Source of the DNA: a virus
Direction: 5' to 3' (one strand)
Length of the DNA stretch: 30,513 nt
Virus record (IMG/VR): IMGVR_UViG_3300006894_000004
Location: 1-30,513 of that record
This document shows positions 7,282 through 30,255 of this stretch, in pieces. Every line of letters starts with the position of its first letter. Positions within the stretch are counted from its first letter, which is position 1. The translations under genes and the position numbers were made by a program. The notes under the pieces were generated by a model. It ran no database searches and was not told the DNA's origin. It saw only the letters and a list, made by a program, of their open reading frames with translations.

Positions 7282-10200
7282 TTAGCGTACTCTACGAAGC
7301 GACATTTTACAAGAAAATCCATCGTTATCAAAGTCCCTTTGAAGTCTTGTAACAATAAATAGCCAAGCCTCTTCTACACCCGCCTGAGAAAATTTAATAT
7401 TAACTTTATCGCCAATTTGGGTAAAGGTGTTAGAAAACACTTCAATTTCTACAGCGTCCATTGGATCTGCCCAATGTTCAACTATCCATTTTGATAATTC
7501 TTCCGCTTCTTCTTCTGTATGAATCCATTCTGCCTCTAAAGTCATTTTAATTGGACCATATCGTCTGACAGAAATTTCATCCTTGACATTCTTTTGTCCT
7601 TCGCCCTTTTCTTCTAAAACATATCCATAAAGCATTAGCGAATGATCAATGCTTTGGGATTCAGTAATTTCCTCTGTCCCATTAACTATTTCAGTTTTTC
7701 TAGAAGCATTTGCTAAAGTAAAAACACCTTTGGTTGGATGATACTTCTGATCAACCAATCTAATCTTATCATTACTAAGAAAAATATTAATTGATTTTGC
7801 TGGCTGTTTATCTAGATCTACTTCAAATGTTCTAATTTCATGTGCAATTGCACCGAATTCTTCATAAAAATAGTTTCTTTGCTTAGCGTTTCCAAACTCA
7901 TCAAATCCCCAGTTATTGGCTGGCAATCCGTCTGGGGACATTAATATAGTTGCCCCCAATTTGTTTGAAATGTATCCGCCCTTGCTGATGTCATAGATAG
8001 AAAAATCATTTGGTGCGTTATATGAACCCTCTCCATATGCCATATTTGGCACCTGAGTAAATTCATAACATAAAGATAAATTATTTGTAGAGGTGTAATT
8101 TATCTCTATCATAGAGGCATAATCCATTGTTTCTGACAATTCCCAAACACGTCTGGATTTTGGAGTCAGTGTAAACGTTCCAAGATTTTTAACACTCTTT
8201 GGTATATTAATGCCAGGATCATGAATTAGCTTTAATGAATGAATGGTTGCATTTGTAGTATGTGTTACTAGGCTAAGTGCACCAGTTCCTAGCCAACCAT
8301 CTTGCATAGGAAAATTAATTATCTTTTTAAGATTCGTTCCCGGCTCTAATTGAACAACATTCATATCAAATTTCTCATCGTCATAGTGGTATCTACTATC
8401 AATGTTATTGGTTGCATAAAAATAATCAAAATCTACCTTGCTGGCACCACGGACAAAAAGTCCACCCCAATTAGTAGCTCTAATTCTATCTGTTGTATAA
8501 AAAGTGTCTACTAGTTGACCATCAATAAATACTTCAATAGCCGAACAGTGCTCTCCATTAATCCATGTATCTTCGCTATAAGTAATATCTAAATCATACC
8601 ACTTATTGTTGTCTAGTTGCCATTTGATACCACGTAAGCCACCGTTAAAAGATTTCATGGGCTTGTATGTATTTCCATTTTTTACTTCACAAAATATTTC
8701 GTCTTGCCATCCACGGCCAAGCTTATCTGTCGCTTCAGTAGATAGTAAACTAACTTGATAGAATCTATGTGCATCCATTGGGTGATCTGGACCCTGATCA
8801 TCATAAACAAACCCATCTGCATCAGATATATTTAAAACGATACCGGCGTGGCCCCATCCTGGAGTAAATCTGATCCTTGTTCCGAACTCTCTCATTTCTG
8901 TTGTATCAAATTCTCTCAGAATAACAGCACATACATCTGGATTTGAGCCACCTGTTTTTACATGATCACAGGTTAAAATTGAGTCTTTCCAACTCCATTT
9001 GTATTGAGCTTCAACCCAATTTGTTTTTGTTCTCCAATCGCCCGGGACGAATTGACCACCCCATTCGAAATATTTACCTGGCCAATATGCTGAACCTGCA
9101 CCTGCCATCCACATATGCATTAAATACCATCCATCAGCAATGCGAGGTGAATGGAATAGTTCTCCGCGACCGTCTACATTTCTTTTTGTTGTAACTAATC
9201 TACCAGTAAAATGATTTTGTCTTGTTGGATCAATTCCACCACCAGTAAAGCTATTCCAAGTTTCTAGATCCTTTTTGCGCTTTTCATCATCATTGTAAAT
9301 GATAACCTCGGTTTTAGTCCCGGCAGTAAAGTCCCATTGAAAGTATCCTTTTCCGTTATACTCAAAGACCTCTCCATCAATATTTGCTGATCCCTTATAT
9401 TGCCAGGTTGCAGCCTCAGCTGGATCAATCCAAATGCTGTTATTAACAGGTGTACCAAGAGTTGGATGTGGATATGAAACTCCTGAAGAAGTTATTTCCC
9501 TTTGTAGTGCTGATGCACGAAGAGTTACGGTGTCATCCGGTTCCCACACAACTGATGTCAATGGCTGATTGGTTAAATCTAATTCATCGACTTTTGCTTG
9601 CATCTTTTTGTATTTAATAGTTACATCATTGGCAATCAATTCATATTTTCTATCAAAGGTAGCAATGTCGGGGATATCTAACCCATCTTCTTCTGCCAAA
9701 AATGTCCATACTGGAGTATCCGTCTCATTTGCTATTTCAGAGCGGGTAACTAGTTGAATAACTCCAAATTCATCACAAAAAATTGCACACTGATGAGATT
9801 CACATAATTTTTGAAAAGCCTCATATACAGTCTCTTCTCCATTTGTCCAGAAGTATTTTACTGTTGCTGTTGTATCGAAATCCTCGGATTGAAAACTATA
9901 AGAATCTACAGCAACCTGATCCAATATGGTTGACATTGTTCTGGCAATAGATTCATTTTCTACAAGCATTGCTGGACAATATAAATCTTGAAGTATCTTT
10001 AATACATCAAATACTTCAAGCGTGTATTCATATTCGTTTGTTTGTTGCCATTCAGATGTATACATGGTTGCAACTCTAGCCTTGTAGCTAGCTGCGCCGG
10101 AATAATCCGAAAGGTCATAATCTACATAAAGTCTAAATTGACACCAAACATTTAATAATCCAAAGAAATCTGATGCTGGATCTTTATTGCTTATTTTTAG

Positions 10201-11043
10201 ATCATAGTCATTGATAACAATGGATGCACTATTTGAACTAATTTGTCCAACTGGATAAATAAAATCTTCCTCATCCATGCTCATGTCAATACTATATTCT
10301 GAAACTCTGTAAGTAAGATCTAGTTCACGCATAGCCGCGATTTCTAGCAACTGAATTCTAGAATCGGCGTCGGCAACAGTTCGAATATGTATTCTTACAC
10401 CCTTAATTTCTTGATAAATAGATTCATCAAGCTGTTGAATATCTACCCAAGCCGAACCATTCCACCAAATTTCACATAAGCCTGTAGCAGCGTCGACATC
10501 TGGTCGGTCCGCTATTTCTACCCAAGCATTAGCGTTCTTTTCGAACACTTCGATAGACCAATCTTTAGGTATAGTTCCCAAATTAAATCCAATTCTAATT
10601 TTATTGGATTTGACAAAAGATTCATAATCAACCTTAACTTTAAATTTGTCTAATTTAAATTCACCAATTGGTCCTGCTGGATCAGAGATATTGATGTCAT
10701 AAGTTTCTGATTGTAATGGGGACATATAGTATTTAAATTTGCTGTCTGTCTCGATAGTATAAAATCTTTCTGAGGAGAGCCCCGCGCCTGTATTCGTCAT
10801 AGTGTATGATTCGTTATCTGCGAATGCATAAAATATTCCAGATTTTGGCCTAATTCTATCTGTTATAGCACCAATTGGAAAATATTGTTTGTTATATGGC
10901 CATGCGGTATTATCAGAGTCCAATTCATTGACTTCTGTTGTTTTTAAATGATTAAAGTTCCACTCAGCAATAACTAAAGGTTTACCCTTTATATCATGTC
11001 CTCGACGGATTGCAGTTAAATATTCTGTAGGTATAGACTGCAT
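7282..11043 (-). CDS. Tail hub / baseplate protein with LamG-like and shared beta-domain inserts
   Basis: A 1253-residue protein downstream of the tape measure and Dit-like genes, the usual place of the tail hub (gpD / gp27-like). Residues about 320-440 (CQFRLYVDYDLSDYSG, then DVLKILQD and a DEFGVIQLVTRSE segment) fit hub domains. The C-terminus (about 1110-1253, ending GFSCKMSLRRVR) resembles the closing hub domain with a TQIGDKVNI strand. Between these, about 690-895 is a LamG / concanavalin-like sandwich (RFTPGWGHAGIVLNISDADG). Residues 899-995 are a domain also present in the 28324-28728 protein and in the endolysin C-terminus (INFPM at 909-913, FTLTPKSRRVWEL at 957-969). So the hub carries host-contact-like modules in its middle. 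It ends 36 bases before the next gene. Confidence 0.8.
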   Translation of the reverse strand: MQSIPTEYLTAIRRGHDIKGKPLVIAEWNFNHLKTTEVNELDSDNTAWPYNKQYFPIGAITDRIRPKSGIFYAFADNESYTMTNTGAGLSSERFYTIETDSKFKYYMSPLQSETYDINISDPAGPIGEFKLDKFKVKVDYESFVKSNKIRIGFNLGTIPKDWSIEVFEKNANAWVEIADRPDVDAATGLCEIWWNGSAWVDIQQLDESIYQEIKGVRIHIRTVADADSRIQLLEIAAMRELDLTYRVSEYSIDMSMDEEDFIYPVGQISSNSASIVINDYDLKISNKDPASDFFGLLNVWCQFRLYVDYDLSDYSGAASYKARVATMYTSEWQQTNEYEYTLEVFDVLKILQDLYCPAMLVENESIARTMSTILDQVAVDSYSFQSEDFDTTATVKYFWTNGEETVYEAFQKLCESHQCAIFCDEFGVIQLVTRSEIANETDTPVWTFLAEEDGLDIPDIATFDRKYELIANDVTIKYKKMQAKVDELDLTNQPLTSVVWEPDDTVTLRASALQREITSSGVSYPHPTLGTPVNNSIWIDPAEAATWQYKGSANIDGEVFEYNGKGYFQWDFTAGTKTEVIIYNDDEKRKKDLETWNSFTGGGIDPTRQNHFTGRLVTTKRNVDGRGELFHSPRIADGWYLMHMWMAGAGSAYWPGKYFEWGGQFVPGDWRTKTNWVEAQYKWSWKDSILTCDHVKTGGSNPDVCAVILREFDTTEMREFGTRIRFTPGWGHAGIVLNISDADGFVYDDQGPDHPMDAHRFYQVSLLSTEATDKLGRGWQDEIFCEVKNGNTYKPMKSFNGGLRGIKWQLDNNKWYDLDITYSEDTWINGEHCSAIEVFIDGQLVDTFYTTDRIRATNWGGLFVRGASKVDFDYFYATNNIDSRYHYDDEKFDMNVVQLEPGTNLKKIINFPMQDGWLGTGALSLVTHTTNATIHSLKLIHDPGINIPKSVKNLGTFTLTPKSRRVWELSETMDYASMIEINYTSTNNLSLCYEFTQVPNMAYGEGSYNAPNDFSIYDISKGGYISNKLGATILMSPDGLPANNWGFDEFGNAKQRNYFYEEFGAIAHEIRTFEVDLDKQPAKSINIFLSNDKIRLVDQKYHPTKGVFTLANASRKTEIVNGTEEITESQSIDHSLMLYGYVLEEKGEGQKNVKDEISVRRYGPIKMTLEAEWIHTEEEAEELSKWIVEHWADPMDAVEIEVFSNTFTQIGDKVNIKFSQAGVEEAWLFIVTRLQRDFDNDGFSCKMSLRRVR

Positions 11044-11450
11044 TATACCTCATCCAATGAAATGTCTAGATCATATAAGTCTGTATATGATCCCCTTTTC
11101 TTTAACTTATAGTTAAAGTCTTCAAACATTACAAGTACATCTTCTGTTGATTTATCACCATAAGTGATAGTCATTATAAAGCTCCCTTGATTATCTTTAT
11201 AGAATTCATATATAGAAATTACCCCGGCATATCCGTCAACTGTTTTCGAATCTTCATTTGGAAGATCTTCCCAAGAAACTCTAAATTTTCTTTTTTCTGC
11301 AACAACAAATCTTCTTAGGGTTCCATCCGCCATACGTTTTTTATTTTCAATTTTGGATGTACTCATAGATAATGGAGATCTTTTATGGTCTGTAACTCTC
11401 ATTCCGCCAAAACTGACAATGCAGTCTATAGGCAATCTAATTATTCCCAT
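11043..11450 (-). CDS. Distal tail (Dit-like) / minor tail protein
   Basis: A 135-residue protein between the tape measure and the hub, the position of the distal tail protein in siphoviruses. The sequence alternates short beta strands (DGTLRRFVV, RKFRVSWEDLP, FIMTITYGDK, LYDLDISLDEV), consistent with the tail-tube fold shared by Dit and tube proteins. This is a fold guess from sequence and position. The ATG shares one base with the tape measure stop (TAATG) and has no clear Shine-Dalgarno site, so translation is probably coupled. Its own end shares one base with the hub start. Confidence 0.65.
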   Translation of the reverse strand: MGIIRLPIDCIVSFGGMRVTDHKRSPLSMSTSKIENKKRMADGTLRRFVVAEKRKFRVSWEDLPNEDSKTVDGYAGVISIYEFYKDNQGSFIMTITYGDKSTEDVLVMFEDFNYKLKKRGSYTDLYDLDISLDEV

Positions 11451-14400
11451 TATCTAATCTTCCCCAATCTCTTGTCCTTATTCTTATTTGCTTGTTCAAT
11501 CGCAGACATAACAGATTCTGTTATTTCTTCTTTGGAAACGCTGGTTCCTTCTATATTGATATCTATATAATACTGATTTGGCATTCCTTTGTCAAGATTA
11601 TCAATGCCGCGCTCAAGCTTAGCAGACAATGGAGCTGTTAAAACAGTCTCATCCTTGTGTAAATTAGCCAAGGTATTATCATACTTGATCATTCCACCAA
11701 TTTCTAGTCCCGGAATAAATGTTCTTGGGTTTTGCCAATTTCTTGGACCTCCACCCATCTGGAAATGCAAGTGAGGACCAGTTGAATAACCAGTTGAACC
11801 CACATAACCAATTAGTTGACCCTTATTTACTCGTTGCCCTGGTGAAACTACAATTCTAGATTGGTGAGCATAACCAGATTTAATACCGCCGTGATCTAGA
11901 ATAGTCCAGTTACCAAATCCACCAGAATTCATTCCGGCAGATACAACTGTACCCGAGTCTGTTGCATAAATCGGTGTTCCTGAAGGTGCGCCAATGTCAA
12001 TACCATCGTGCAATTCATTTCTGCCCGAAATTGGATTTCTTCTGTTACCATATTCTGATGTTACTCTACCAGATGTAGGTTTAGCATATTTACCTGTTCC
12101 TGATCCAATTATAGATCCAGAAGAGTTGCCGCTCATTAATCTGGCAAACATTCCAAATCCAGGCAATCCTGACATTGCTCTTGAGAAATTGGCTGATCCA
12201 ATTCCAGCGCCCGCAAGAGCTTCAGCCATTGGTTGCCATTTTGCATAGGCGTAAGGAAAGGCTGATCTTTGAACAGCTTGAGCTGCAAGAGTTGGTGACA
12301 TAGAATCTCTATTTTTAATTCTAAGCAATCCCTGGAAAAACTTCATTGCAGCATATTCTGGATTCATAATTTGTGCAATACTTCCCCAACCCTGCGATGT
12401 TCTTTGCTGGAATAGACCAACAGAATCTCGGTCACCATAGTTAAGATTTCTCAAAGTCGACTCTTGCATAGCAGTCATCAAAGAGATAATGATATCTCTT
12501 GTGGATGCGCCCATGCTTTTACCAACATTGGCAATGATGTTAGCATTTCTTAATTGTTCATCTGAGAGCTTAACCCCACCATAAACACCTGCCTTTTGAG
12601 CCATATTGAGAACTGAAAGTCCACCATTAGTAGCTGATTGCTCTTGAGCACCCAAGAATGTAGCCCCAATAAGCCCTCTCATCATAGTTCCAATAACGCC
12701 ACCGAACATACCAGCCATAGCTACGCCGGGGTCTCCTCCACCAATTCCAACTTTACCGGAATTAATTTGATCTACCCAATCTGTTCCATACTTGCTAACA
12801 GCATCTTTATTTAGAACATATTCTCCTTTTTGTAGAATAGCTGGAACTTCATCATCATAAAGTCCTCCAGTTCTGCCTAATCTACCACCAGTATCACGAC
12901 CAATATAACCACCTGTATGGAATGCATATTGCATATCGCCGCGCTGCCCTTGATATGGCTTACTTGCGCCAGGCGGTTTCCATCCTGAAGGAGGATTACC
13001 AGTTACAAGCATGTTAAAGAAGTCTCCCAGGCTAAGCCCAAACGCACCATTAGAAATAGCACCTGCTACAGCAGCACCGAACGATGCCCATGCCGCATCA
13101 TTTGACATATTTATTCTGGCTCTATCAACATTGGATTGAAGTGCATTACCAATAATTTGGCCCCATTCTCCACCTTTAATAGTAAGTTGGATTCCATGAC
13201 GACCATAAGCATCTTGCACTCTTCCAATATGTGACCACAATTCAGCTTCGTTTTGAGGAACAAATTCTCTCAATGTTGCAAGTTCAATTTCCAAAGATTT
13301 CTTTTGGATTTCTTGCTTACGACGCTCTGTATCCTCTTTTGCCTTTTGCTCTTTTTGAAGATTGTCCATTCTTTCCTGAAGAGCCTCTTTTTCCATCTCT
13401 CTTTGTCTTTGCAAAGATTCTGTCACTGCCTCTTCTTCAGCAGCTAGAGCTTCTAGTTTGGCTGCCTTAGCCTCATTAATGATTTGCTTTCTTTCATTAA
13501 GTTCAGTAATTTGTTGATCAATTTCTTTTGATCTCTGATTAGCAGCAAATTGAGACTTTCTGGCATCATCTTCTGAACCCCATCCAGATTGAACACCGGC
13601 CATATTATTCTGAATTCGAGCAGCTTCATCCAAATTGCCTTCAGCCATTGCTCTATTGAAGTCAATATTTCTATTGGCAATTTCATTAAGTCTTTCGATT
13701 CTTCGTTGTTCAGCTTCAAATTGTGCCTGACGTTGCTCTTCAATTTCTTGCTCTTTTTCTTTCTTATCTTGAAGAGCCTTGATTTGTCCATCAATTGCCT
13801 TTATTTCTGCTTCGGAATTCTTTTCAATTTGCTTCTTAGTTTCATCGAATCCACGCTTAGAATCTTTCATTCTAGCATCCCAAGATTTATCCAAAGCCTT
13901 AGATTCTCTATCCAATGCGCTCTTCTTTCTGTCATATGCCGCACTAATAGAGTCTAGTCTTGCTTGGAATTGTCGTTCAGATTGTGATGCCAATGCATCC
14001 ATAATAGTACTTGAAGCACCAGAATAAATTTGTTTGGTTGAATTAGCTAATGTTTGAGCTTGCTTTTGAACATCTTCACCCAAATTAACAAATCCTTGAT
14101 TTCCAGAGGTCTTTGCATCAAAGAATTTACCCTGTTCAGAATTAACGTTTTTTAACGTAGTAAGAAATGCTTGAAGTTTAGTTGCATTAGCCTGAGTTTC
14201 TGCACCAAGGTCTGTTTGCTTTCTTGTATATTCTCCAGTTGCTAATTTAGCAGCATCTAATCCACCAGCCAAAGCATAAATTGTTGCCAATTGTAATTTT
14301 TGCTCATCTGTAAGCTTTTTACCATCTTTTTCTGCTGCACTCAAAGCCTCACCATATTGCTTAATAGCTTGTTCACCAGACATAGTTCCTTGGTTCAGGT

Positions 14401-17400
14401 GTGGAAGCAAGTCACTAAATGTCTTAAATTTCTTACTTACATCCGGAGAAACACCAGCCAAATTAGCAACCTCTGTTGTAAACGATCTCATAGAATTAGC
14501 AGCAAGAGCAATTTCTTTTGAAAAGGCATCATCTGTTTTTGCACTAAATACACCATATTTATCACTAAATGTTGTATACTTTTGCATTAATTGTTCCCAG
14601 TTATATGCTGGACCAGAATTAAACCCTACAGTACCCTTGAATTTTTGATTAATCCTATCTGCTGTTTGTTTTTGAATGTCTGACATTTGTGTGGTTATAT
14701 TATTCAAAAGATACGCTCTTTGAGAAGGATCAAGATTTACCATTCTGTCCCATAAAGTTTTGGCTGTCTCTTTAATGCCTGCGGCACCCTGGTCAGTAAC
14801 TTGAGAAAGTTTTCCAAAAAATCCTGGATCGCCTTGGAACGCTCCACCAGCAATAGTAGAATCAAATGTTCTTCTCCTTACATCTGAAAGGAATTTATCT
14901 AAATCTTTTTTAGAGCCAGTAAAATCGAAATCGAATTTAATTTGACCCATAATTTTATCAATTTCTTCCTTCTTTTTACCTGCGGCACGAAGTAAAGCAT
15001 CTAGTCCCTGAGTAATCTGATCTTGTGGAAGTCCTTGACCCTGAAGCTTATAAAGTTCAGTTCTAATTCTGTCATATAGCTTTCCATCGCTAAGCTTTCT
15101 CACTTCTTGAACTAATGGAGAATTTTCTTCTCTCATCTTTTGAGCAATACTATCAACAGTATCCTTAACTTCTCCAGAAGCAGTTTTAATTTGACCCATT
15201 TCTTGCTTAACAAAACCAAGGGACTTGGACCAAAGATCTGTAGAATTCTTTACGGCCTCCATGTTTGCAAGTTGCTCTCTTGATTCAGCAGTAACTAATG
15301 AGTATATACCATAAGCCGTAGCAACACCAGCACCTACTAATAATGTAGCTGGATTCATTAAAAATGATCCAATTCCTGACAGCATTCCGGCACCTTTAGC
15401 AGCTAATCCACCTCCGCCAATTCCCATAAGAGATTGTGCGGCGGCATTAGCTTTAATTGCTGTTCCAATTTTACCTAAGATAGGCATAAGCGCATAAAGC
15501 GCTACAGAAGCCAATGAAATATAATTTAACCATTCTGCAAAACTGCTATTTGCACCCATAGCCATAGACGCAATACCTGACACAGCAGATACAGCAAGCA
15601 AAGATTCTCCAGTAAAGGCGCGTTGAGCAGTAGCAGACTTTTTGGTTTCATCTGTAACCTTTGCTTGTTCCCTGGCTGTTGCAGCAATTGCAACCTGTTC
15701 ATTGTATGCCGATTTTTCAGAAGCATTCAATGCTCTAGGACCAATTTTTGGATCGTTAATGTACATTGATCCATCTTTGGTTCTACCTATAGCCATTCCG
15801 TTAATTTGATTTAAATTATTACCCGGGGCAGTTGCTGCCATACTTGTTGCTTTATATGCGGCCTGAAGTTTTTCTAATTGGAAAATAAGTATTTGAACAC
15901 TGTCAGCCTCAGTTAAAAGCATCTTGTTGTAAGTTCCAGAAGCCATTTGGGCAGCCTTTTGCTCAATAGTCATAGACTTATATCCACCAGCAAGACGCAT
16001 AAATGAACCAACTAACTTAGCACCAGTTCCAATAAGGTTACCAATTAAACCAGCAATCATGACTAATGGACCAGCAATAGCTGTAAAAGCTCCAAGAATA
16101 ACTATTCCGCTTTTAACCCAATCTGGCATGTTATTAACAAATGATAGAACTGCTTCACCACTCTTAAGGATTAATGTTGCCACCTTAAGCGCTATTTCAC
16201 CGAATTCTTGAAACTCTGATTTAAATCCTTCAAGTGCTATGTTAAATTGACCAGAAAGGCTTCCAACTTGCTTTTGGAGTTCGTTACCAGCCACATTTGC
16301 CAAATCTCCAGCACCTTGTTTGGCAACTTCCATTGCTCTTCCTACCTGACCACCTGTGTCGGCTAGACCTTGCAAAATAGAAGTCATTCTGGTCATCTGA
16401 TATGAACCAGCTAATTGACCAATTAATTGCTGTTGTTCAGCTACAGAAAGATTAGATTCTTGAATAATCTTTGAAAGCCCCATCATTGTAGGCATTAGTT
16501 GACCTTTAGTGGTCGTAATAAAATCTTTAAGAGATTTCCCCGTTAATTGCTGGAATAATTGCTCTGTTTCTTTTGCGGGATTAAGCAATCTATTCATAAC
16601 GGTTTTAATAGCATTTGAACCTTCAGCAGCATCCACACCACGTTCTTTCATGGCTACTAAAATAGTACCAAGTTCTTTAATGCTACCGCCCAATTCTGCT
16701 ACTGGAGCAGCTGCGCGCGGAATAGCTTCAGCAAAATCTTGCATGCTCAATGAGGTAGCATTTTCAACGGCGTTCATATAGTTGATGGCCTCAGTAGTTT
16801 CCTGAGTACTCATTTTAAATGTAGATTGCAATGAAATGACAGCTTTAAGTGAATCCATTCTATCCATTTCACCCAAGGTTGTTAGTCTCTGAACTTCAGC
16901 AGTTGATCTTTGCAAATCTACACCTTGTTTACCTACAGCAGCTAATTGACCCATAACGTCTAATGTTTCTTTAACTGGCTGACCCATTGTTTGAGTAACC
17001 ATTTTGGCTGTTTCCATTGACATTTTTCTAAGGCCCTCGGTTGTTCCATCATAGACCTTTTCAATTCGGGTTAATTCTTTGTCCACGGTGTAAGCATAAA
17101 CACCAGCAGCAGCGGCTGCTGCTGCAAAAGGAATTGTAAAACCAACCATAAGCTGTCTACCAGCCCACTGAGTATTTTTACCCCAATTTTGAATTTGGGT
17201 ACCAGTAGATTTTAAAAGTTCACCATGCAAAGACATTTCTCTGTTAGCAAGTTCCATGCTCGATGTAAATTCTTTTACAGAGCTAGCTGTTGGAACCGTT
17301 ATTTGCATAGCACCATTACCTAGATTTTTAGATAATGAGTTTTGTAATCTGGCTTGCTGAACAGCCATATCACCCATTTTGCGCCATTGTCCAAAGAATT

Positions 17401-17560
17401 CGCTAATTCCGACTTTATTCTTTTGGATAAGCTTCGCCATCTGATCAGCTTGACGAAGCCCCATATCCCAATCAAATTTAGGTTGAGCAATGGCTTGAAT
17501 ATCTCTAGCCATTTTAGAAGAAAGAGTTTTAGAATTTAAAGTTTCAATACCCCTACCCAA
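11450..17560 (-). CDS. Tail tape measure protein with transglycosylase-like and M23 peptidase domains
   Basis: At least 2036 residues. It sets tail length and is threaded through the tail tube. Visible parts: a TP901-type tape measure core (about 150-450), hydrophobic segments near 135-158, 478-515 and 735-755, and a long charged coiled coil (about 1190-1420, Lys/Glu/Arg/Gln-rich). There follows a lysozyme-like domain (about 1660-1770) with candidate catalytic Glu1700 in AMQEST and a GDRDSVGLFQQR motif. An M23 zinc endopeptidase domain follows, with H1851-x3-D1855 and H1930-x-H1932. These domains probably open the wall during DNA entry. The nearest conventional start is TTG at 17560. The frame is open and protein-like up to an ATA at 17656 overlapping the previous stop, so about 32 more residues are likely. 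Confidence 0.95.
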   Translation of the reverse strand: MGRGIETLNSKTLSSKMARDIQAIAQPKFDWDMGLRQADQMAKLIQKNKVGISEFFGQWRKMGDMAVQQARLQNSLSKNLGNGAMQITVPTASSVKEFTSSMELANREMSLHGELLKSTGTQIQNWGKNTQWAGRQLMVGFTIPFAAAAAAAGVYAYTVDKELTRIEKVYDGTTEGLRKMSMETAKMVTQTMGQPVKETLDVMGQLAAVGKQGVDLQRSTAEVQRLTTLGEMDRMDSLKAVISLQSTFKMSTQETTEAINYMNAVENATSLSMQDFAEAIPRAAAPVAELGGSIKELGTILVAMKERGVDAAEGSNAIKTVMNRLLNPAKETEQLFQQLTGKSLKDFITTTKGQLMPTMMGLSKIIQESNLSVAEQQQLIGQLAGSYQMTRMTSILQGLADTGGQVGRAMEVAKQGAGDLANVAGNELQKQVGSLSGQFNIALEGFKSEFQEFGEIALKVATLILKSGEAVLSFVNNMPDWVKSGIVILGAFTAIAGPLVMIAGLIGNLIGTGAKLVGSFMRLAGGYKSMTIEQKAAQMASGTYNKMLLTEADSVQILIFQLEKLQAAYKATSMAATAPGNNLNQINGMAIGRTKDGSMYINDPKIGPRALNASEKSAYNEQVAIAATAREQAKVTDETKKSATAQRAFTGESLLAVSAVSGIASMAMGANSSFAEWLNYISLASVALYALMPILGKIGTAIKANAAAQSLMGIGGGGLAAKGAGMLSGIGSFLMNPATLLVGAGVATAYGIYSLVTAESREQLANMEAVKNSTDLWSKSLGFVKQEMGQIKTASGEVKDTVDSIAQKMREENSPLVQEVRKLSDGKLYDRIRTELYKLQGQGLPQDQITQGLDALLRAAGKKKEEIDKIMGQIKFDFDFTGSKKDLDKFLSDVRRRTFDSTIAGGAFQGDPGFFGKLSQVTDQGAAGIKETAKTLWDRMVNLDPSQRAYLLNNITTQMSDIQKQTADRINQKFKGTVGFNSGPAYNWEQLMQKYTTFSDKYGVFSAKTDDAFSKEIALAANSMRSFTTEVANLAGVSPDVSKKFKTFSDLLPHLNQGTMSGEQAIKQYGEALSAAEKDGKKLTDEQKLQLATIYALAGGLDAAKLATGEYTRKQTDLGAETQANATKLQAFLTTLKNVNSEQGKFFDAKTSGNQGFVNLGEDVQKQAQTLANSTKQIYSGASSTIMDALASQSERQFQARLDSISAAYDRKKSALDRESKALDKSWDARMKDSKRGFDETKKQIEKNSEAEIKAIDGQIKALQDKKEKEQEIEEQRQAQFEAEQRRIERLNEIANRNIDFNRAMAEGNLDEAARIQNNMAGVQSGWGSEDDARKSQFAANQRSKEIDQQITELNERKQIINEAKAAKLEALAAEEEAVTESLQRQREMEKEALQERMDNLQKEQKAKEDTERRKQEIQKKSLEIELATLREFVPQNEAELWSHIGRVQDAYGRHGIQLTIKGGEWGQIIGNALQSNVDRARINMSNDAAWASFGAAVAGAISNGAFGLSLGDFFNMLVTGNPPSGWKPPGASKPYQGQRGDMQYAFHTGGYIGRDTGGRLGRTGGLYDDEVPAILQKGEYVLNKDAVSKYGTDWVDQINSGKVGIGGGDPGVAMAGMFGGVIGTMMRGLIGATFLGAQEQSATNGGLSVLNMAQKAGVYGGVKLSDEQLRNANIIANVGKSMGASTRDIIISLMTAMQESTLRNLNYGDRDSVGLFQQRTSQGWGSIAQIMNPEYAAMKFFQGLLRIKNRDSMSPTLAAQAVQRSAFPYAYAKWQPMAEALAGAGIGSANFSRAMSGLPGFGMFARLMSGNSSGSIIGSGTGKYAKPTSGRVTSEYGNRRNPISGRNELHDGIDIGAPSGTPIYATDSGTVVSAGMNSGGFGNWTILDHGGIKSGYAHQSRIVVSPGQRVNKGQLIGYVGSTGYSTGPHLHFQMGGGPRNWQNPRTFIPGLEIGGMIKYDNTLANLHKDETVLTAPLSAKLERGIDNLDKGMPNQYYIDINIEGTSVSKEEITESVMSAIEQANKNKDKRLGKIR

Positions 17561-17652: not shown

Positions 17653-18281
17653 TTATTCATCCTCTTCTATAACTTGAATCATACCATCAAGCTCAATTTG
17701 CTCTTCAGACATTCCGGCAACTCTTGCGGCTGCACGACGTTTTACATCATCAAAAGATGACTGCTGTTCTTTATCTAGATCTATACCCTTTAGTGCTGCC
17801 ATGAACTTATATTGTTCTCGCTTCAAGTCTCTACCTTTTTCTAACATGACTGCTAATTCTTGTCTAGTTAGATTTTCCTCTAAATCATCAAAACTTTTCC
17901 AAGTTCCCGGGTATAAATACATAAGTTCAGCTTCTAGATCTACTAATTGATCCCATCCTGATTGTTCGCCATCGCCGCTGCTAGATTTGGGTCATTTAAC
18001 TTCACCCCTGCTGCTACATCTAAAATATGTTCTAGGGTTGGTTGATCGATATGTTCTGATAAAACATCTGGATCACTCAATCTTGGTTCAAATGTTTCCA
18101 TTGCAACAGCAACAGCATCTAAAAATACATCTAGTAATGATTTCTTTTTTACATCTTCATTTTCAAAATCTATTTTCTCAAATAGTTTCTTTAGCTTTTT
18201 AATAGTAAGAGGATGTATTCTGATTGGCTTGTCCCAATCCTGTAGTTCAATATCCTCGACAGAATAAACTCTATTTGCCAT
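17653..18281 (-). CDS. Tail assembly chaperone GT-type fusion (made by -1 frameshift)
   Basis: The second chaperone frame (stop at 17653) has no good start of its own: its first ATG at 17922 lacks a Shine-Dalgarno site. It is open upstream to a TGA at 17992-17994. Right after that TGA lies C CCA AAT (17985-17991), in the correct phase for a -1 slip from the upstream frame. A slip there gives 99 residues of the first protein followed by 110 of the second, 209 in all. This arrangement, just before the tape measure gene, is the established G/GT pattern of siphoviruses. The T part (TWKSFDDLEENLT.., then KRRAAARVAGMSEEQIE) is helical and acidic at the end. The fusion coats the tape measure during tail assembly and is not expected in virions. 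Confidence 0.85.
17943..18281 (-). CDS. Tail assembly chaperone G-type protein (unshifted product)
   Basis: A 112-residue protein between the major tail protein and the tape measure, the standard place for the first tail assembly chaperone. It has a lysine-rich helix (RIHPLTIKKLKKLFEKI), then an acidic helical body, similar to actinophage chaperones. I chose ATG at 18281 because AAAGGA lies six bases before it. A GTG at 18296 would overlap that ribosome binding site. The gene has its own promoter after the major-tail terminator. A 13-bp inverted repeat abuts the ribosome binding site. The last residues after position 99 are replaced when ribosomes slip into the GT frame. Confidence 0.85.
   Translation of the reverse strand: MANRVYSVEDIELQDWDKPIRIHPLTIKKLKKLFEKIDFENEDVKKKSLLDVFLDAVAVAMETFEPRLSDPDVLSEHIDQPTLEHILDVAAGVKLNDPNLAAAMANNQDGIN
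17985..17991 (-). other. -1 ribosomal frameshift slippery heptamer
   Basis: C CCA AAT read in the G frame is a canonical X XXY YYZ heptamer: both tRNAs can re-pair as CCC AAA after a slip. It comes one codon after the last stop of the -1 frame and 42 bases before the G stop. Downstream sequence has only weak pairing by eye. I do not claim a pseudoknot. Confidence 0.85.
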
Positions 18282-18311
18282 TATAGTTCCTTTCACGTTA
18301 TCTTAAAATAA

Positions 18312-26719: not shown

Positions 26720-28321
26720 TTAATTGCCGCCTGCACCAATAATTGACCAAGCATATGAATAAGGGGTATATGCTGTTCCAGTTTCTCCTACATATTCTGA
26801 AACTATTCCTAAATTTTCAGTCTCTGAAATATTGTCTGTTCCAACTAATGTTTTATACAAGACCAAGGCATCGGATTCTGCCAATTCATTTTGATATCCA
26901 GTCAAAATCATATAAGATATATTACTTGGATCTGGAAAATTTAAAGAAAAAGTTGTGTCTGCTGGTGTTGAGTCTACAAGGACTAAATGATACCACTGAT
27001 TTTTCTGAACGTTATCTAAATCTGTAACTAATTGACCATTTAGATAAGCAGTGTATCCCACTATAGATCCAGAGGGACCAAACGAGGCTGATCCATCGGC
27101 AGAGTTAAATACATAGGTTTTTACATCAATACTTTCTGGTCTGAAAACTACTTCTATAGTTTTAGGCACATCTTCAAAAAATTGACCAGAAATCCATTCT
27201 CCATTGTAATAAGAGTCTTGAAGAATAACTCCATCCGGACAATTAACTATCGATGCCTCATATACTTCTGGATAAATGGCTCCACCCACAGATGTTAAAT
27301 TCGCAGGCGTTTGATAAGTAACGCCACCATCGAAAAATACATTTATTTTCAATTCAAATTGAACGCTGTCTCTTTGTCCACCATGATACTGTTTGAATGT
27401 GATAAGAGGCATTTCTTCATCAATGTCAATAATTGCACTATTAATAATTTGTGTCCATGTGGATTCTTGATTTATTCTATAATAAAGATTAACATTTTCA
27501 TTAGAGTTTTTTACAGTGACAAAATCAAATAGCTTATCGTCTTCTGTTGCAGGTACTTGATAGTATGCAAAACTTTCTTGTCCAACGTCATCAAAAAAAG
27601 TAAAGTCATCAGATGATACTACTGATGTCATAGCTACAGTATTTCCAGAAAATACTGTATTGATTCCGCCGTATTTTCTGGAAGAAAGATACTGATACCC
27701 CAAATTATCGTCATCAATATACTTTGTTTTTTGCTCAAATCCTCTGAAATAGACTCCTAGCCCATCTAGAAAAAATGACTCACTAGCATCTAAAGTTCCA
27801 GACCCTATTTTACAATCAGCAACCGCTACAGGATCTCCAACATATTCTAAAATGACTGACTGAGAATTTACATTAAGTTCAGCTTGATTATTCATAAAAT
27901 TAACTACAATGTGTAGTTTCTGATTCCAGTCAGTAACGTCTAGTGAAACTATTATAGGAGAAATCATTCTCCAATAATCGAAATAAAGCACTAGTGATAC
28001 TCCAGTATTTGTCAGAAATATTCCACTGCCGGTGGTAGGATCTGCCAGCAATGGAATTTCATCCTGTGGTCTTAAGCAGTAAACAACAAGCTCAATACTA
28101 GAATCCTGTCTAAAGATCCCCATATTTCCAGTGATTTCTATTGCTTGATCACCATTTATTCTGAATGAGGATTCATGACCAAAAATAATGGGTTGTCCAT
28201 CTAAAGTTGATGTATTCGAATCAATTGTAAATGTTGTTGTCCCCGATTGATCAGTTGTCAATGGGGATGCTAAATAGAATGCTGGACTTGTTGATAATGC
28301 TAACTGATCATAGGTGCTCAT
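26720..28321 (-). CDS. LamG / concanavalin-like virion-associated protein
   Basis: A 533-residue beta-rich protein with two LamG-like sandwiches, about 1-205 (GHESSFRINGDQAIEITG, then SIELVVYCLRP and KLHIVVNFMNNQAELNVN) and about 340-510 (IEVVFRPESIDVKTYVF, then VGYTAYLNGQ and QWYHLVLVDS). Such modules often bind glycans or decorate capsids and fibres. It is the third gene of the PAS operon, two bases after the small beta-domain gene, and has only a weak ribosome binding site, so it is probably coupled. No signal peptide or enzyme motif is seen. Fibre, decoration protein or secreted adhesin are all possible. Confidence 0.65.
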   Translation of the reverse strand: MSTYDQLALSTSPAFYLASPLTTDQSGTTTFTIDSNTSTLDGQPIIFGHESSFRINGDQAIEITGNMGIFRQDSSIELVVYCLRPQDEIPLLADPTTGSGIFLTNTGVSLVLYFDYWRMISPIIVSLDVTDWNQKLHIVVNFMNNQAELNVNSQSVILEYVGDPVAVADCKIGSGTLDASESFFLDGLGVYFRGFEQKTKYIDDDNLGYQYLSSRKYGGINTVFSGNTVAMTSVVSSDDFTFFDDVGQESFAYYQVPATEDDKLFDFVTVKNSNENVNLYYRINQESTWTQIINSAIIDIDEEMPLITFKQYHGGQRDSVQFELKINVFFDGGVTYQTPANLTSVGGAIYPEVYEASIVNCPDGVILQDSYYNGEWISGQFFEDVPKTIEVVFRPESIDVKTYVFNSADGSASFGPSGSIVGYTAYLNGQLVTDLDNVQKNQWYHLVLVDSTPADTTFSLNFPDPSNISYMILTGYQNELAESDALVLYKTLVGTDNISETENLGIVSEYVGETGTAYTPYSYAWSIIGAGGN

Positions 28322-28323
28322 GT

Positions 28324-28728
28324 TTACTCATAATAAATCGTACCTTCCCAGTCACTTACATCACCGGGATAATCTGGATATGGTCTTGGTTGCACATTTC
28401 TATTTGTTTCTATACATACAGAAATATTTGCAGTAGATGTGTAATTAATCCACATCATGGACTCATGATTATATAAAAACCAGGGCGGACGTGAATATTT
28501 ACCTAATGTCCATTCAAACCAGTTATTAACACTGGTGCCGCCAACACGCCTGATGCGCTTTTGTACTGATGGACCATAGTCTGCTATAAAAAGCATTTCA
28601 TGTACCGTTGCGTTAACACTTGAACATAGTGTAACAACAACTCCGCCCAACCATCCGGCGGCCATTGGAAAGTTAATCATATGACTAACGTCAGTTCCTG
28701 CTGGTAATTGTATTGTTGTACTTGCCAC
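28324..28728 (-). CDS. Stand-alone copy of the beta-domain shared with hub and endolysin
   Basis: A 134-residue protein. Residues 8-108 align by eye along their length with hub residues 899-995: GT....INFPM..GWLG, NAT(I/V)H, a W-(E/T)-L strand and INYTST.N.S.C.E. They align more weakly with the endolysin C-terminus (about 245-334). The rest is a short proline-rich tail. The start is GTG at 28728, sharing one base with the stop of the PAS gene (TAGTG), with GAGGAG six bases before. It sits before a LamG-like gene, the same module order found inside the hub. A binding role in the virion is inferred. No function is known to me. Confidence 0.7.
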   Translation of the reverse strand: MASTTIQLPAGTDVSHMINFPMAAGWLGGVVVTLCSSVNATVHEMLFIADYGPSVQKRIRRVGGTSVNNWFEWTLGKYSRPPWFLYNHESMMWINYTSTANISVCIETNRNVQPRPYPDYPGDVSDWEGTIYYE

Positions 28729-29135
28729 TATATTCTCCTCATAAATGCTATATAATATATTTTACTATCATAATTAATAAAAGATAAATCTATTTGTATT
28801 GGTATTTCTTGACCAGATTTATCTAAAATGTTTGGAGACAATCCATGCCTGTCAAGTTTTTTAATAGGATTTTTTATAAATTCTTTTTCATATTTAGAAT
28901 GAGATTTCCTTTGATCCATTGGAAGAACTAATTTTATTTTCTCCCCAATTATCTCTTGCCTAGAAAATCCAGTAAGTAGTGTAAAGGCATTATTAACTAA
29001 AAAGAAAGTCATGGAATGATCAAACGCAGCTACAGCCATTGGACATTCGTCAAACAGCAGTTGCCAAAGTTCTGCCTTTTCTATAAGCAGGTTTAATTGA
29101 TCTGATAAGTCTTCTACTCTTCCCAATAGGTTCAT
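28728..29135 (-). CDS. Stand-alone PAS-domain protein
   Basis: A 135-residue protein. After an N-terminal helix (about 1-26), residues 27-135 make one PAS fold: ELWQLLFDECPMAVAAFD, then FFLVNNAFTLLTGFSRQEII and a long helix-loop with DQRKSHSKYEKEF, then the strand LDKSGQEIPIQIDLSFI. PAS domains sense small ligands, redox state or light, or mediate dimer contacts, usually inside kinases or regulators. No output domain is present and no cofactor-binding residue can be named safely. It is the first gene of an operon with two beta-rich proteins. The ATG is eight bases after a perfect TATAAT with no Shine-Dalgarno site (leaderless type). Confidence 0.8.
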   Translation of the reverse strand: MNLLGRVEDLSDQLNLLIEKAELWQLLFDECPMAVAAFDHSMTFFLVNNAFTLLTGFSRQEIIGEKIKLVLPMDQRKSHSKYEKEFIKNPIKKLDRHGLSPNILDKSGQEIPIQIDLSFINYDSKIYYIAFMRRI

Positions 29136-29250: not shown

Positions 29251-30255
29251 TCACCATTCTGATCTATGTTCAAGCAACCATCCAATTGGATTACTTGCCT
29301 TATATTTTACAGAAACTTGTGTTACTCCATCTGGTAATTCCCACATTGGTCGATCATCTTTTGTCAAAGTAAACTTACCAGTGACTAGTGGATATTCTCC
29401 TGCTTTAGGACCTGGACCTTTATCTGCTACTGCCCAAATTCCAATAATTTCAGCATCTTTGTCTGGTGTTACCATAGAGAACCATGATCTTCCTTTCGGT
29501 CCAGTTACCAAATTTGCCTTTACAGGTGGTACAGCAAGTACGCCCCACTTTTCTACAAGTTCGGTAGTAACATTTCCTTCTTCATCTTGAACCTCTACCT
29601 TTGAGTCGTCCCATTGTCCATTTGTTGAGTGATTTCCTGCAATAAATTTCATTACTTGATTTTTAATATCGAAAAGCGCTTGTCTTTCGTCGTCTTTCAA
29701 GTCTTCTTCCTCCTCTCCATTTCTAATTGATTGAACTTCTAGCCTAAAACCCTTCATGTCTCCCGGCCAACCATGAGGATCAATTTTTCTTCCTGGTGCC
29801 CATTCTTTGTGACCTATTGCTCTCTCTGTACCAAGTCCCAAATAATCTAGTAATGCTGCCACTCCTTTAGGATAAGCATCCAATTGCTCTTGTGTCCAAT
29901 CACCTCGTCCAGTAGATTCAGCCTCAATTCCAATTAGATGTGCATTTCCATTATTAGTTCCACACCAAGAATACGATCCGTTTCCTGCATGCCACGCCTG
30001 GCCAGCAGCAATAACCCACCAATAACCATCACGTGCCAATCCTAGGTGAGCAAGAGGACCATCTAATCCTGGACGACCATTAACAACGGTATTTGCTGAA
30101 GGATAGTCCCCATTTACAGGACCAGCAGTATGATGTAATAGTACTCCTCTAATATCACTCATAGGTCCATGTCCATGAGCTTTCCAATTGCCGTGTTCAT
30201 AAACTTTACAGCCAGCATCTCTTAGTACTTGTGCCAGCCATGTTAAATATGCCAT
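29251..30255 (-). CDS. Endolysin: N-acetylmuramoyl-L-alanine amidase (Amidase_2)
   Basis: A 334-residue enzyme that cuts the bond between MurNAc and the stem peptide to lyse the host. Residues about 35-165 are an Amidase_2 / T7-lysozyme-like domain: zinc ligand candidates in LLHHTAGP (H41/H42), GHKEWAPGRKIDP with H149 and D159, and GNAHLIGIEAES at 103-114. The style GPLAHLGLARDG is typical of actinobacterial phage lysins. Residues about 185-240 are a linker. Residues 245-334 are a beta-rich C-terminal domain related by eye to the hub and the 28324-28728 protein (GKFTLTKDDRPMWELP at 293-308), probably for wall binding. GAGGAGGTG precedes the ATG. It has its own promoter and terminator. No holin is seen beside it. 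Confidence 0.93.
   Translation of the reverse strand: MAYLTWLAQVLRDAGCKVYEHGNWKAHGHGPMSDIRGVLLHHTAGPVNGDYPSANTVVNGRPGLDGPLAHLGLARDGYWWVIAAGQAWHAGNGSYSWCGTNNGNAHLIGIEAESTGRGDWTQEQLDAYPKGVAALLDYLGLGTERAIGHKEWAPGRKIDPHGWPGDMKGFRLEVQSIRNGEEEEDLKDDERQALFDIKNQVMKFIAGNHSTNGQWDDSKVEVQDEEGNVTTELVEKWGVLAVPPVKANLVTGPKGRSWFSMVTPDKDAEIIGIWAVADKGPGPKAGEYPLVTGKFTLTKDDRPMWELPDGVTQVSVKYKASNPIGWLLEHRSEW

Follow-up and report, generated by a model that had tools for sequence, protein, structure and literature searches.

A predicted β-sandwich domain shared by the tail hub, a stand-alone late protein and, probably, the endolysin of an uncultivated phage related to Stanwilliamsviridae

The DNA analysed here in its entirety (hereinafter the window) is a 30,513-nt viral fragment, positions 1 to 30,513 of the IMG/VR record IMGVR_UViG_3300006894_000004; part of a second, 59-kb IMG/VR contig (3300027639_000001) is 99.993% identical to it over 30,454 bases. 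The window encodes the following features bearing on the domain:

7282..11043, minus strand: tail hub/minor tail protein, 1253 aa (PHROG 10359 minor tail protein, E 1.7e-193)
8044..8367, minus strand: domain copy within the tail hub, residues ~893-1000 (40% identity to the stand-alone protein, profile E ~1e-19)
26720..28321, minus strand: LamG-like late protein directly downstream of the stand-alone protein, positional homologue of Evy gp46
28324..28728, minus strand: stand-alone domain protein (SA), 134 aa (homologues in 10 other contigs; AlphaFold model)
28728..29135, minus strand: stand-alone PAS-domain protein directly upstream of SA (PAS_9, E 3e-07)
29251..30255, minus strand: endolysin with Amidase_2 (residues 33-161), a linker and the C-terminal domain (PF01510, E 7.8e-20; PHROG 880, E 2.2e-47)
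29254..29523, minus strand: endolysin C-terminal domain (CTD), residues 245-334, probable distant copy lacking the N-terminal motif (alignment and profile scores)

The SA gene has a GTG start preceded upstream by AGGAG, and its product comprises a predicted β-sandwich (residues 2-109) followed by a C-terminal tail that is conserved across SA proteins. The catalytic Amidase_2 domain of the endolysin scores 72 bits against a curated cut-off of 26. Elsewhere in the window, the tape measure protein (11450-17560, minus strand) has apparent C-terminal lysozyme-like and M23-like peptidase segments, as read by eye, and two small ORFs (17653-18296, minus strand), flanked by the tail tube gene and the tape measure gene, resemble the customary pair of tail assembly chaperones and may be connected through a frameshift.

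Hub residues 899-995 align with SA residues 8-108 at 40% identity, with colinear motifs and a Smith-Waterman score of 174 (shuffles: 27.7±4.8). Profile comparisons are significant in both directions: a profile built from the hub copies only recovers SA at E 6e-19, and one built from SA proteins only recovers the hub at E 3e-19. At the sequence level, the hub region ~893-1000 and SA are unmistakably homologous domains, and the original prediction of one domain in both proteins is borne out across the whole phage group. The motif order that it had read in the two proteins also stands, but some details do not: the hub has LSLVT, not FSLVT, and five residues rather than four separate GT from INFPM. 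Its statement that the domain belongs to no named family agrees with the libraries searched (Pfam, PHROG, NCBIfam and PDB sequences), none of which returned a match. The domain was likewise absent from the named phages searched and from scans of 84,980 species genomes, and single-segment searches of named phages and IMG/VR matched only the same phage. Isolated weak database matches, each to one family member only, were taken as chance.

A hub-based scan recovered relatives at 38-40% whose hubs contain the domain, and a family scan of IMG/VR added 10 contigs that encode SA, of which two measure 137-139 kb. All 11 contigs share a late cassette in which SA lies between the lysis and portal genes (endolysin - PAS - SA - LamG-like protein - ~112 aa protein - portal), with an RNR gene before it wherever that region is covered. 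The domain is present in every hub covered in the group (G001, G002, G003, G008 and G009), SA and the hub copy occur together in every contig covering both, and in each of the 137-139 kb contigs two copies and no more are detectable, one being SA and the other in the hub. In the Rhodococcus phage Trina, tailspike and tail-fibre genes occupy the slot of PAS and SA. The stand-alone PAS protein (~135 aa) directly precedes SA in 11/11 contigs and had no match among 50,697 named phage records; it puts a sensor-like domain into a late phage operon.

By sequence, position (two genes after the tape measure gene) and gene order, the hub is a member of PHROG 10359, which comprises minor tail proteins of Stanwilliamsviridae. 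Its nearest named relatives, at 26-30% identity, come from Streptomyces and Rhodococcus phages that share their gene order with the window, and the hub region is syntenic with those of Evy, Trina, Dorin and Muntaha. The domain-bearing phages are an uncultivated group related to Stanwilliamsviridae (Streptomyces phages) and to Rhodococcus phages; given these hub relatives and their gene order, the host of the window's phage is likely an actinobacterium. Unlike the window's hub, the known PHROG 10359 members lack the inserted domain, a trait of these members rather than a criterion of the library. In the hub alignment, the insertion site spans 136-142 residues in the window (139), the duplicate contig, G002 and G003, versus 14-19 residues in all other full-length hubs. 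The site lies between a lectin-like region (ConA/LamG-like, read by eye, directly before the inserted domain) and a GGY segment, with conserved regions on both sides. As judged from this alignment, the hub copy is a clean insertion of ~120 aa.

An AlphaFold model of SA as a monomer, made from 12 homologues with the endolysin left out, is a β-sandwich (pLDDT 84.3, pTM 0.79) with strands at residues 2-8, 11-19, 28-36, 40-49, 58-62, 73-75, 82-84, 89-98 and 102-109. On this model, the domain is confidently predicted to be a β-sandwich of ~105 aa, and its weak fold neighbors suggest that it is probably of the jelly-roll type. The best PDB neighbors are varied jelly rolls (Ena pilin, CBM6, the Tk-SP jelly roll and YomS), all at E 1e-3 or higher and with TM not clearly beyond 0.5, and those in BFVD are small uncharacterised phage proteins with TM about 0.5. 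Since there is no strong PDB match, the fold alone does not indicate glycan binding. A first model, made from two sequences, was poor (pLDDT 55), and its fold matches were set aside.

The original prediction had also placed a copy at the C-terminus of the endolysin, a link that holds at lower confidence. The hub aligns with endolysin residues 255-330 with a Smith-Waterman score of 67 (shuffles: 25.6±4.1; 0/2000 reach it). The comparison with SA of the same phage is non-significant (score 40, p 0.02-0.08), and that with SA of contig G011 gives 70, a score reached by none of 3000 shuffles. Both the best and the mean family score of the CTD lie above those of all 2894 windows from real proteins (background maximum 60), a background that took in many tail-protein windows; the mean score was reached by 1/3000 shuffles, and no window from six further endolysins exceeds 44. 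A family profile built without the CTD places it as the top non-member among ~8500 ORFs, yet only at E 0.017; across the profile comparisons, the E-values of the CTD span 1e-4 to 0.02. As a query against the 11 contigs, the CTD matches only SA (G011 and G012) and its own hub. It aligns to the SA model from strand 28-36 through strand 102-109; the first hairpin is unrecognisable by sequence, and the first-half motif GT...INFPM..GWLG, near-invariant in the group (GT, N.P, W.G), is missing. A tree of 13 domains, with few supported branches, contains an SA group, a hub group and a very long endolysin branch (3.7). Taken at the strength of these scores, the CTD is probably a distant third member of the family that lacks the N-terminal motif. 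A PHROG 833 match across the endolysin was not borne out with the CTD alone, which gave no PHROG match.

Among the 11 contigs of the group, only this phage has an endolysin with the new domain. In its positional orthologues from named phages (gene order RNR - lysin - ... - LamG - ~112 aa - portal), the enzyme terminates in LysM for Evy and Muntaha and in LGFP repeats for Trina and Dorin. The domain-bearing group itself varies at this locus, where the gene codes for Amidase_2 with two PG_binding_1 domains in G002 and G004 (G005 is alike by sequence), Amidase_2 with LysM in G006 and G007 (G010 alike), GH25 in G008 (G009 alike), and Amidase_2 with no named binding domain in G011 (G012 alike). As orthologous endolysins end in LysM, LGFP or PG_binding_1, the new domain occupies the wall-binding slot: it shares their position after Amidase_2 but has no sequence or family match to them, no Pfam match (LysM, LGFP and PG_binding included) being found in the CTD. 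A binding role for the CTD would lead one to expect such turnover of wall-binding parts at the locus.

A host-surface-binding module is favored by four features taken together: the hub copy follows a lectin-like region, the domain also exists as a late protein of its own, its fold is a predicted β-sandwich, and it occupies the endolysin slot; it is from these that we infer a binding function. Our preferred reading, held with moderate confidence, is that the domain is an accessory module of an undescribed family, used by the hub and SA at adsorption and reused as an endolysin wall-binding domain. The copy inserted in the hub would bind a host-envelope polymer during adsorption; SA, presumably located in the virion, would likewise bind an envelope polymer (wall glycan or peptidoglycan); and the diverged third copy would, in this phage's amidase endolysin, take the place of the customary wall-binding domain and keep the enzyme attached to the wall as the cell is lysed. 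The ligand would be common to the hub, SA and endolysin copies: a shared wall or glycan target is plausible from the predicted β-sandwich fold and the wall-binding slot. The endolysin copy lacks the near-invariant N-terminal motif, so its ligand may differ. More tentatively, and with some doubt on our part, the same fold and ligand may serve at entry (hub, SA) and exit (endolysin), such that a shared module reads the host wall type at both.

The domain might instead be a structural or oligomerisation module, with SA packing against the hub copy or forming rings, either as a building block of the tail tip or as particle decoration, and no host binding. The co-occurrence of SA and hub copy, the retention by SA of its own C-terminal tail, and the frequent oligomerisation of jelly rolls, including the pentamers of YomS (PMC6834076), agree with this; however, it leaves the copy at the endolysin's wall-binding position unexplained and sits less well with a clean hub insertion between conserved regions, and we regard it as rather unlikely. 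The endolysin similarity could also be chance, or convergence of β-rich domains, with the hub/SA family real and either function compatible. The modest profile E-values, the long branch, the missing motif and the lack of the domain in the other endolysins examined all point that way; against it, neither shuffles nor real-protein windows match the CTD score, the similarity is colinear across ~80 residues, and the CTD query retrieves only SA and hub. We consider this account improbable. A role for SA as an XepA/YomS-type protein of the lytic cassette, aiding lysis via the membrane while the hub copy is a separate use, is very improbable. The SA gene does lie one gene from the endolysin gene, and YomS is among the fold matches of SA (TM 0.40/0.45, E 0.016), but that match is one of many equally weak jelly-roll matches, YomS itself was not cytotoxic (PMC6834076), and the hub copy is left unexplained.

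The domain represents a phage domain family not described before, and its role can be put to the test because it is cleanly present in some and absent from other natural hubs that are otherwise well conserved. Should the endolysin copy recognise the same wall component as the hub and SA copies, the lysis enzyme could serve as a readout of adsorption specificity, and the domain would offer a new probe of actinobacterial walls.

XepA and YomS, small jelly-roll proteins of Bacillus prophages (PMC6834076), resemble SA in size, in the proximity of their genes to lysis or tail genes and in a weak fold similarity; sequence similarity of SA to them was looked for and not found. In the literature we found no clear precedent for one domain common to an endolysin and tail proteins; choline-binding repeats, known from pneumococcal phages, were weighed as a candidate, but the publications consulted do not place them in a tail protein. 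The closest functional parallel for SA and the hub copy is the BppA carbohydrate-binding module of lactococcal phages. In Tuc2009 this module is a protein of its own, and it also occurs as an insert in evolved Dit, in MTP extensions and in neck proteins; fused to GFP, a tail module and a neck module each bound to host cells (PMC6669499). The domain described here had no sequence match to BppA in the PDB, and BppA was not among the best 50 PDB fold matches listed for the SA model. BppA and the present domain are both small β domains found as a separate accessory protein and as a tail-protein insertion; BppA is inserted in Dit, MTP or neck proteins, whereas here the recipient is the hub, there is the probable endolysin copy in addition, and binding is predicted. 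Module reuse of the BppA type is of an already known kind, whereas the domain family described here and its reuse in an endolysin appear to be new.
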